NCBI RefSeq assembly: GCF_012726235.1
Contig: NZ_JAASAH010000022.1
Location: 1-64,000 of the forward strand
Reading direction: 5' to 3'
DNA length: 64,000 bases
Source: Streptomyces sp. HNM0574
Lineage (GTDB): Bacteria > Actinomycetota > Actinomycetes > Streptomycetales > Streptomycetaceae
In this document: one piece after another, positions 60,650-63,736 of the stretch
Numbering within the stretch: position 1 is the first letter of the stretch
Layout of the letters: every line of letters begins with the position of its first letter
The notes under the pieces: generated by a model
What the model saw: only the letters and a program-made list of their open reading frames with translations
Told to the model about the DNA's origin: nothing
Databases searched by the model: none
Made by a program: the position numbers and the translations under genes

Positions 60650-60686
60650 AAGGCGCCGCCCCGCAACTCGTGCGGGGCGGCGCCTT
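60650..60686. terminator. Bidirectional terminator between convergent genes
   Basis: A perfect 16-bp stem (60650-60665 with 60671-60686) and ACTCG loop between the permease and methyltransferase genes. Confidence 0.92.
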
Positions 60687-60699
60687 CGTCGTACGCGGC

Positions 60700-61794
60700 T
60701 CACTCCGCGAGGCGGACGGGATTCCCCGGCTCGTCGAGCCACAGCTCCGGCTCGGCACCGTCACCGGTGAAGGTGAGGCCGAACCGGTCCCGCGCGGGAG
60801 TGCCCAAGGCGAGCCACCGCGCGTGGGCGTCCCCGACCTCGTCCCACAGCCTGCGGTCCCCGTGCTGCTCGGTCTCGAACTCCTCGCGGCCCGGGACGTA
60901 TTCGACCGTCGCCCAGGAACGGGCATCGTCGGACAGCAGCCAGTACGTGGCCTCCCCCGAGCCGTCCTCCGCCTCGTACAGCACCGGGCGGGCGAAGGGA
61001 ACGAAACGGGAGAGGAACCAGCGTGCGTCCGGCTCCTCCAGCGTGCGCGGATCGATGTCCGTCCCGGCGATCTCGCCGGGCTGCCCGTCGTAGACCTCGC
61101 GGATCAACGGGCGGGACGGGCGGTGCGCCTCCGCCCACATGAACGCCGGACTCCCGGAGAACCGTCCGGTGCCTCCCCTCCCCCGCTTGGTGAGCGTCAG
61201 CAGGCTGTAGGAGTGGAAACTGTTGCCGTACGGGGTGACGAGCCTGCCGCCGTCGGCGAGTTGCTCCAGCAGGGCCGCCGGGACACCGCCGAGCGTGCAG
61301 GTGGCCACGATGCCGTCGTACGGGGCCCGTTCGGGGTGCCCCAGCAGTCCGTCGCCCGGCACGAGGAGCGGCCGCATGCCGCAGCCGTGCAGACTCCCGC
61401 GTGCCACGTCGAGCACCTCGGACGCGCTCTCGACGCTCACCACCCGCGCCTCGCCCAGCCGGTGCGTCAGCAACGCGGCGTTGTACCCCGTACCGGTCCC
61501 GATCTCCAGTACGCGATCCCCCTCCCGCACGCCGAGCAGCGCGAGCATCTCCAGCATCAGGGACGGCATGGACGAGCTGGAGACCGGAACGCCGTGCGCA
61601 TCGGTCCGGGTCACGATCGCCGTGTCGTCGTAGACCGCCCGCGCCCACTCCTCCGGGTCACGGGCGCGGTCCAGGCTCTCCGTCCGGTCCGGCACGAACC
61701 GGCCCCGGTCGACCCCGGCCACCGCATCCGCCCAGCCCGGCGGCACGGCACCCCTGCCCCTCAGCGCCCTGACGAGGTCTTCGTGCCCGGTCAC
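60700..61794 (-). CDS. PIMT-like O-methyltransferase with C-terminal extension
   Basis: A 364-residue SAM-dependent enzyme resembling protein-L-isoaspartate O-methyltransferase. Residues ~52-105 carry AVYDDTAIVTRTDAHGVPVSSSSMPSLMLEMLALLG (the PIMT active-site region) and motif I VLEIGTGTGYNAALL; later VVSVESASEVLDVARGSL and YDGIVATCTLGGVPAALLEQL fit. A C-terminal ~150-residue domain (from ~215) is absent from housekeeping PIMT and is the kind found on PIMT homologs that act in RiPP clusters. The GTG start lies 4 nt after a 31-residue peptide gene, so the two are cotranscribed. It probably methylates aspartate in that peptide. A role in protein repair is the alternative. Confidence 0.85.
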   Translation of the reverse strand: MTGHEDLVRALRGRGAVPPGWADAVAGVDRGRFVPDRTESLDRARDPEEWARAVYDDTAIVTRTDAHGVPVSSSSMPSLMLEMLALLGVREGDRVLEIGTGTGYNAALLTHRLGEARVVSVESASEVLDVARGSLHGCGMRPLLVPGDGLLGHPERAPYDGIVATCTLGGVPAALLEQLADGGRLVTPYGNSFHSYSLLTLTKRGRGGTGRFSGSPAFMWAEAHRPSRPLIREVYDGQPGEIAGTDIDPRTLEEPDARWFLSRFVPFARPVLYEAEDGSGEATYWLLSDDARSWATVEYVPGREEFETEQHGDRRLWDEVGDAHARWLALGTPARDRFGLTFTGDGAEPELWLDEPGNPVRLAE

Positions 61795-61798
61795 CGCG

Positions 61799-61894
61799 CT
61801 ACTTCCGCTCGGGCGGCCACTTGCCGTCCGACTCCCGGGGCGACTGCTTCTTGTCGCCCTCCTCGCCGCCCTTTCCGTCGCCATGCTTGCCCAT
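61799..61894 (-). CDS. 31-residue peptide, candidate substrate of the methyltransferase
   Basis: The peptide begins MGKHGDGKGGEEGDKKQSPR and ends ESDGKWPPERK. It has no hydrophobic segment, contains only one aromatic residue (Trp26), and carries two Asp-Gly pairs (Asp6-Gly7 and Asp23-Gly24), the dipeptide most prone to succinimide formation. AAGGAGG lies 9 nt before the ATG, a near-perfect ribosome site, arguing for genuine expression. It is first in a two-gene unit with the PIMT-like methyltransferase, 4 nt upstream of it. It could be a RiPP precursor; a small regulatory or stress peptide is the alternative. Confidence 0.75.
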   Translation of the reverse strand: MGKHGDGKGGEEGDKKQSPRESDGKWPPERK

Positions 61895-62157
61895 CAGCGG
61901 GCTCCTCCTTCGCCTTGTCCGTCTTCCCGGTCTTCCCGTGGATTCGTCGCGTACGCCACCCTCACGGAGGGCCGTGTGCACCAGGGTTTCCGGGACGCGG
62001 TGTTGAGCGGTCGGCGCTCTCGTAGGCGTGCGGAGCCGCCTGCTGAATTCCACGCTCTCTTCGCCCAACTCCCGGCCGTTGGAGGAGAGGTCCAGGAATT
62101 TCACGGGTCAGGGCTTTCGCTTTCCCAGGGAACGTACGCTGGCAAGGAGGTGATTTT
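61895..62157. other. Divergent spacer peptide gene / XRE regulator gene
   Basis: These 263 nt hold the promoters of the methyltransferase unit and the XRE regulator. A full AAGGAGGTGA lies at 62145-62154, unusually complete for a ribosome site, before the regulator ATG. No operator palindrome stood out. Confidence 0.4.
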
Positions 62158-63393
62158 ATGTCGTCGCTTGCCGAGAACGTCCGGAATCATCGCCGCCGCA
62201 TGGGCTGGAGCCAGGAGCAACTTGCCGAAGAGGCCGACCTGTCCGTGGGCGTCGTACGCAAGGTCGAGCAGGGCGGGGACGCCAGGGTCGAGACCCTTCA
62301 CACACTCGCGCGGGCCCTCGGCACCACGACCTCCAGTCTCTTCGCAACGGAAGTCCCCGACCCGGTCCGTGCAGCCGAAGGAGACGGCCCCAGGCTCGCG
62401 GAGCTGAGACGAGCGCTCATGCCGCCCGTCGGTCTGTCCGAAGTGCTGGTGGAGCCACCTCAGCCCGTCGATCCGGCCGCGATTCAGCGCGACATCGACG
62501 ACGCGCACAGCCTGTACCACGCAGACCGCTACGACTCCGTCGCAAAGAAGCTCCCCGGCATCCTGAGCGCCTCCGAGGCCGCGGTCGTGACCGCCGAGGA
62601 TGAAGATGCTCGACAGCAGGCCGCTGCCGTGCGCGCAGGGGCCTTCCTGCTCGCAGGTAAGTTCCTGACGCAGGTCAGGCGGTACGACATGGCCTACCAC
62701 GCGCTCTCCCAGGGCATCAGGGAAGCCAGGGAGGTGGGGAAGACCGGCATGGCCGCCACGGGTGTCGTGGGCCTTGCATGGCTACTCCTGAGGCAGGACC
62801 GCTTCGACGAAGCGGAACGTCTGGCCACCACGACGGCCTCGGAGGTCGAGCCGCGCATCTCCAGCGCCACGCAAGGTGAGTTGGCCGTGTGGGGTGAGCT
62901 TCTTCAGCGTGCCGCCTCCGCGGCCGTGCGGAACAACCGGCCGGACGTCGCGAGGGAGGCCCGACGCATGACGGCGACGGCCGCCAGCGCCCTGGACTCC
63001 GAGCACGTGAACTTCCCCGAGCACTGGACCACGTTCGGGCCGGTGACGGCCGAGACGAAGGTCATCGAAGACCTCGCGCTGATCGGGGATTCTCGTGGTG
63101 TGCTCCGCCGAGCCGATGAAGGGCCGGTCGGAGCAAAGGCGTTGAAGCGTTTCGGCCGGACGAGCGCGAACAACTGGGACCGGCACCGGCTGGATGTCGC
63201 CCAGGCTCACGCCCGACTGGGGTCGCACCAGGATGCGATGGATGAGCTCAACTCCATCCGCCGGACCTCGCCGGAGTGGCTGAAGCACCAGATGATGGCG
63301 CGCTACGTCATGGAGGACATCCTGACGAAGCGCAAGCGGACGCTGACCACAGGCATGCGGGACATGGCCTCTCACCTGGGCGTCACCGGGTAA
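62158..63393 (+). CDS. XRE-family regulator with TPR-like C-terminal domain
   Basis: A 411-residue putative transcription factor. Residues ~1-65 form the Cro/cI helix-turn-helix (VRNHRRRMGWSQEQLAEEADLSVGVVRKVEQGG, TLHTLARALGTTTSSLFATE). The remaining ~330 residues are alpha-helical and repetitive, TPR-like (AFLLAGKFLTQVRRYDMAYHALSQGIREA, RFDEAERLATTTASEV). This design, an XRE head plus TPR tail, is common in Streptomyces and often senses a peptide. The ATG follows AAGGAGGTGA by 3-4 nt. Codons include more A/T-ending ones (CTT, GAA, CAA) than neighbouring core genes. It is divergent from the peptide-methyltransferase unit and followed by three mini-genes. Confidence 0.88.
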   Translation: MSSLAENVRNHRRRMGWSQEQLAEEADLSVGVVRKVEQGGDARVETLHTLARALGTTTSSLFATEVPDPVRAAEGDGPRLAELRRALMPPVGLSEVLVEPPQPVDPAAIQRDIDDAHSLYHADRYDSVAKKLPGILSASEAAVVTAEDEDARQQAAAVRAGAFLLAGKFLTQVRRYDMAYHALSQGIREAREVGKTGMAATGVVGLAWLLLRQDRFDEAERLATTTASEVEPRISSATQGELAVWGELLQRAASAAVRNNRPDVAREARRMTATAASALDSEHVNFPEHWTTFGPVTAETKVIEDLALIGDSRGVLRRADEGPVGAKALKRFGRTSANNWDRHRLDVAQAHARLGSHQDAMDELNSIRRTSPEWLKHQMMARYVMEDILTKRKRTLTTGMRDMASHLGVTG

Positions 63394-63487: not shown

Positions 63488-63736
63488 ATGGCAACCACCG
63501 ACAGAAGGCCGGGCGCCACGGAAGTGCCCAACGGCACGCTGGCGAAAGACCCCGAGCACGACGGCAAGGTCGGCGTGGTGATGGGCAGCGAAGGCCCGTA
63601 CCTCCAGCTCCGGCCGCTCAACGGCGGCCGGGAGTGGGACGCCAGGCCCGAGAAGATCGAGCGCCTGACCGCCCGAGAGGAGATCAGCGCTCTCTTGGCG
63701 GTGCAGAACGAGCGGTCAACGAAGAGGCGCCTGTGA
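63488..63736 (+). CDS. Small conserved hypothetical protein, first of three mini-genes
   Basis: An 82-residue soluble protein. The middle (PEHDGKVGVVMGSEGPYLQL) resembles a small beta-barrel such as a KOW/SH3-like strand pair and is followed by RPLNGGREWDARPEKIERLT and a short helix. I recall similar small proteins near XRE regulators in streptomycetes but cannot name the family. ATG 63488 is preferred; a GTG two codons earlier is also in frame. The stop overlaps the next gene's GTG (GTGA), so the three mini-genes are probably translated as one coupled unit. Confidence 0.65.
   Translation: MATTDRRPGATEVPNGTLAKDPEHDGKVGVVMGSEGPYLQLRPLNGGREWDARPEKIERLTAREEISALLAVQNERSTKRRL

Follow-up and report, generated by a model that had tools for sequence, protein, structure and literature searches.

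A predicted two-gene imiditide unit beside a graspetide cluster in Streptomyces sp. HNM0574

A 31-codon reading frame placed directly before a PIMT-like methyltransferase gene raises the question of whether the two genes form a peptide-modifying unit and, if so, of which class. The locus lies near the right end of the window (the whole 64,000-nucleotide stretch that was analysed). The two genes very probably form an imiditide-type (type I pamtide) unit, and methylation of Asp23 leading to an aspartimide is proposed as its chemistry by analogy with characterised systems. As such, the unit is a member of an established class and not a new kind of system.

The peptide gene and its methyltransferase

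The features of the locus and of the neighbouring region are collected in Table 1. The stop codon of the peptide gene (TAG, 61801-61799) is followed 4 nt further on by the GTG start codon of the methyltransferase gene at 61794. The short gene, its AAGGAGG and the 4-nt spacing given in the preliminary description are thus all present in the sequence, as are the two Asp-Gly pairs, D6-G7 and D23-G24, the second directly followed by K-W-P-P. The 31-residue precursor contains no Cys, is weakly basic overall (+1) and has no obvious removable leader; a family-model search found no match to a known family. The list of open reading frames also holds a longer frame that starts at an ATG at 61884 and would make the peptide the N terminus of the methyltransferase. 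This ATG falls within the peptide gene itself and makes an unlikely start, because relatives keep the peptide frame and their enzymes begin at approximately the same GTG or ATG.

Table 1. Features of the peptide-methyltransferase unit and the adjacent region (positions above 64,000 are window-equivalent)
Feature	Position	Strand	Remarks
Perfect 14-bp hairpin	60652..60684	.	Between convergent permease and methyltransferase genes; -34 kcal/mol; candidate bidirectional terminator
PIMT-like O-methyltransferase (PAMT), 364 aa	60700..61794	-	GTG start; PCMT + C-terminal domain
Precursor peptide gene	61799..61894	-	31 codons + stop; product MGKHGDGKGGEEGDKKQSPRESDGKWPPERK
Ribosome-binding site AAGGAGG of peptide gene	61904..61910	-	9 nt before ATG; read from sequence
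XRE-TPR gene	62158-63393		Divergent from peptide gene
82-residue protein	63488-63736	+	No assigned family; after XRE-TPR gene
Graspetide precursor	64136-64399		TIGR04186, 51 bits, cut-off 25
ATP-grasp enzyme	64411-65361		TIGR04187, 385 bits, cut-off 350
Second methyltransferase	65358-66488		TIGR04188, 413 bits, cut-off 380

The Pfam PCMT domain covers residues 5-196 of the methyltransferase (110 bits) and about 160 residues follow, in agreement with the C-terminal extension of ~150 residues noted earlier. Among NCBIfam models, TIGR04188 (ATP-grasp system methyltransferase) gives the highest score, 275.7 bits, short of its cut-off of 380. The scores against the housekeeping PIMT models fall well under the cut-offs (TIGR00080, 95.8 of 159 bits; PRK00312, 104 of 188 bits). 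The structure model of the enzyme has a pLDDT of 96, and its C-terminal part presents a beta-alpha-beta4-alpha arrangement with a pLDDT above 90. The same arrangement, with a WxxxGxP motif, is reported for the C-terminal domain of RiPP PIMT homologues (PMC10787088), and the motif occurs here as WLALGTP. An acidic loop is also part of the domain, with the sequence EAEDGSGE here and EADDGS in relatives, and by description it recalls the DEDGD loop reportedly needed in NmaM (review, PMC13001092).

The top PDB match to the model, over its full length, is the PIMT of Thermotoga maritima (1DL5), whose fold likewise consists of two domains and comprises the C-terminal extension. That protein was solved as a protein-repair PIMT without a peptide partner and shares 24% identity with the enzyme studied here. 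This match and the similarity of the PCMT domain are what speaks for a protein-repair enzyme, with the small ORF either incidental or a mere translational leader. Such a reading is extremely unlikely given the score below the equivalog cut-off, the presence of a C-terminal extension together with a peptide partner, and the composition of the genome, which holds five full copies of the methyltransferase family, three behind a conserved peptide and one in a graspetide cluster. All matches to the housekeeping PIMT model in this genome score below the PIMT equivalog cut-off. The selection on the peptide frame and the placement of the enzyme in a peptide-linked clade, described in the next section, likewise argue against it.

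Conservation of the peptide and placement of the enzyme

A near-identical small ORF occupies the equivalent place beside the closest methyltransferase homologues. A peptide profile built from nine rows and searched against 393 genomes of the window's genus (Streptomyces) retrieved 18 strong matches, with E values of 2.5e-14 or lower, and another three at noise level (E 0.007-0.01). The methyltransferase directly follows the peptide in 18/18 of the strong matches and in 0/3 of the weak ones, and more loci with peptide and enzyme were reached by starting from enzyme homologues. When 23 peptides are aligned over 25 codons, their own frame has a pN/pS of 0.28, versus 1.9 and 1.6 for the shifted frames, and 2163 of the 4080 differences among the 23 peptides fall at third codon positions. 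Purifying selection acts at the amino-acid level in the peptide frame only. A chance ORF is ruled out by the pairing with the enzyme and by this frame-specific selection.

Asp23-Gly24-x-Trp26 (DGxW) is invariant in all 23 peptides. Conservation of the frame with its methyltransferase and invariance of Asp23-Gly24, both singled out for checking in the preliminary description, are therefore borne out. Asp6 is likewise invariant, but the D6-G7 pair is not, since one relative has D6-D7. The peptides of this subfamily span 31-43 aa, have a basic tail in most cases and a Cys in none (0/23), and their consensus is GKHGDGKGGxEGDxxQSPxESDGxW. A related peptide, GKPDT...DGH, accompanies a sister group of the enzyme and keeps the Asp-Gly pair. 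Nine neighbourhoods of the peptide-enzyme pair were compared, and no third gene was found to be common to them.

The enzymes were placed in a quick tree of 110 rows (SH-aLRT support, no bootstrap, midpoint root), in which lanthipeptide enzymes carry no label. The enzyme sits in a 25-row clade (SH-aLRT 99), where 19 rows have this peptide and four have GKPDT...DGH. This clade is nested in a 73-row clade (SH-aLRT 99), in which the recognisable upstream partners are pamtide-like peptides. Most graspetide-linked enzymes fall outside the larger clade; the pamtide-type enzymes L081, L090 and L096 of S. sparsogenes, the species of SpaM, fall inside it. Contrary to the refuting outcome named at the outset, a branching with housekeeping PIMT, the enzyme groups with peptide-linked enzymes and scores below the housekeeping PIMT cut-off.

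Two close methyltransferase homologues within the clade depart from the common arrangement. One (L104, G105:C1) has no clear peptide in front, and the other, from Streptomyces albireticuli (L039), is preceded by a different reading frame; in both, the peptide gene may have decayed or been lost. At a further locus (L105, G103:C52:225000-237000), a GKPDT...DGH pair and then a GKHGDGKGG pair stand in tandem on one strand, an arrangement that suggests duplication and divergence.

Class assignment and predicted chemistry

The class was described in 2023 by two groups, as imiditides (Link) and as type I pamtides (Kim; PMC10787088), and the reported counts are about 1,183 for non-redundant precursors and 1,414 for type I pamtides as a whole (PMC10787088, PMC13001092). 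Type I systems consist of two genes. Their precursors, of ~45 residues and rich in Gly, Pro and Asp, are charged at the termini and keep an Asp close to Pro or Gly; the PIMT homologue methylates one Asp of the linear peptide, giving aspartimide and isoAsp (PMC10787088, PMC13001092). Every defining feature of the class that can be read from sequence is present in the unit. The two-gene layout is common to it and to SpaA-SpaM of Streptomyces sparsogenes and NmaA-NmaM of Nonomuraea maritima. As in these imiditides, the precursor is short, linear, rich in Gly, Asp, Lys and Pro and free of Cys, with an Asp beside Gly and near Pro and with basic C-terminal residues, and the partner is a PIMT homologue with a C-terminal domain and WxxxGxP. 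The peptide differs from imiditides in the invariant Trp after Asp-Gly, and its modification is a prediction.

The minimal two-gene imiditide layout of the preliminary description is upheld, because relatives keep the frame of the peptide, invariably together with the enzyme gene, and because the enzyme, which scores below the PIMT cut-off, belongs with peptide-linked and not with housekeeping enzymes. Class membership is well supported by clade, motifs and layout. The accompanying suggestion of a possible new subtype, made from a short and less basic precursor, is weak. Against the class average, the peptide has 31 instead of about 45 residues (PMC10787088) and a charge of only +1; unrelated pamtide-like peptides in the searched genomes include 31-36-mers, and within this subfamily such a length is nothing unusual. 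What is new is the short, Trp-containing subfamily, which the invariant Trp makes easy to detect, together with regulatory and motif leads.

Two related classes share part of this description. Type II pamtides (cysimiditides) have the same two-gene layout and, according to the literature, the same enzyme family, but they need a CxxCxGxG...CxxCxGxG zinc ribbon, whereas the peptides of this subfamily lack the four cysteines altogether. Group 13 graspetides (graspimiditides: fuscimiditide, amycolimiditide, SsfA) have a related methyltransferase of the TIGR04188 family and GKHG in their precursors, as here. In contrast to them, the unit contains neither an ATP-grasp enzyme nor a TIGR04186-type precursor, the PWG leader and the core rich in Thr/Ser acceptors are missing from its peptide, and its enzyme lies in a different clade. 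No other class-defining RiPP enzyme is part of the unit.

By analogy with the characterised SpaA/SpaM and NmaA/NmaM, from which chemistry, site and mode of recognition are inferred, the upstream gene would make a 31-residue linear precursor that the methyltransferase binds, probably through its C-terminal domain, where the acidic loop would lie opposite the basic PPERK tail. The enzyme would then methylate the side-chain carboxylate of Asp23, and the backbone amide of Gly24 would displace methanol. The resulting aspartimide might persist or hydrolyse, mostly to isoaspartate. Asp23 is the predicted modified residue; conservation alone does not fix it, as Asp6 is invariant too. It is preferred because the Gly that follows Asp6 varies, while Asp23 stands beside Trp and Pro in a setting shared with the sister peptides.

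The adjacent graspetide cluster and the XRE-TPR gene

The absence of a nearby ATP-grasp gene, part of the original argument, holds inside the window but not just past its right edge, where the TIGR04187 enzyme is encoded. A graspetide cluster begins 136 bases beyond the window end on the same contig (L100:8137-10489, equivalent to 64136-66488). From its family-model matches, this cluster is complete, of group 13 type and about 2 kb from the imiditide unit. It is separate from the unit, with a precursor and a methyltransferase of its own. The proximity of the complete cluster and the GKHG common to both precursors would fit a role of the peptide as a graspetide precursor or accessory substrate, cyclised by the neighbouring ATP-grasp enzyme and then methylated. 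This is very unlikely, as an ATP-grasp gene is near none of the eight other peptide loci examined with longer flanks (0/8), the peptide has none of the leader and core features of graspetide precursors, and the cluster's own methyltransferase is of a different clade. Cross-talk between the imiditide unit and the cluster, 2.2 kb apart, is possible.

The same genome contains two further pamtide-type pairs, L101 (G000:C29, methyltransferase 395301-396428) and L102 (G000:C6, 124688-125785), with the peptides MDAFPRMTRAEGGNPQDDSDSGNKHGGGGSDEGGNTSDGQGPADGE and MEDKHRGGPSDKPWTPPPEPPSPDGDNPEKK, respectively. A single genome with three imiditide-type pairs and one graspetide cluster, all with related enzymes, offers a built-in contrast. 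In a set of 29 pamtide-type peptides from various subfamilies, the motif [KRQG]H[GRKSA] occurs in 24 versus 7.5 in shuffles, and GKHG(T/S) occurs in several graspetide precursors (L100, L165, L173, L174). The two kinds of peptide may thus have a common origin, or the methyltransferases may recognise a common element in them.

The XRE-TPR gene, regarded earlier as a plausible control gene of the unit, probably serves the adjacent graspetide cluster instead. This assignment follows from the genomic context, because an XRE-TPR homologue is found beside the peptide in 0/17 other genomes (within 1.5 kb) and at 0/8 loci (within ~4 kb), and because genome G057 (L165) has the same order as here: XRE-TPR, two small genes, precursor, ATP-grasp and methyltransferase. 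The divergent intergenic region was also scanned for promoters and inverted repeats, with no usable result. Beside group 13 graspetides, a 2026 study reports another XRE pair, DUF397-DUF5753 (PMC13097080).

Among the matches listed, 18 of 98 XRE-TPR homologues have a methyltransferase of this family no more than 5 kb away, against 0.55 under a simple uniform expectation, and they adjoin both graspetide and pamtide units. This enrichment is one testable handle on the function of the class. It is also the evidence for a reading in which the peptide, in modified or unmodified form, would be a signal for the divergent XRE-TPR protein acting as an RRNPP-like intracellular receptor; with no such homologue beside any other copy of the peptide examined, and with the gene order of G057 tying the XRE gene to the graspetide cluster, that reading is highly improbable. 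A wider proposal, in which the XRE-TPR protein would control both the imiditide and the graspetide units and PAMT-modified KHG peptides would be ligands of the XRE-TPR receptor family, is decidedly unlikely; if true, it would give aspartimide peptides a first biological role, as signals. The 82-residue protein encoded after the XRE-TPR gene has relatives, marked by GPYxQLRPxGGGxEWD, beside XRE-TPR or PIMT-like loci elsewhere (L022, L083, L088, L159, L165).
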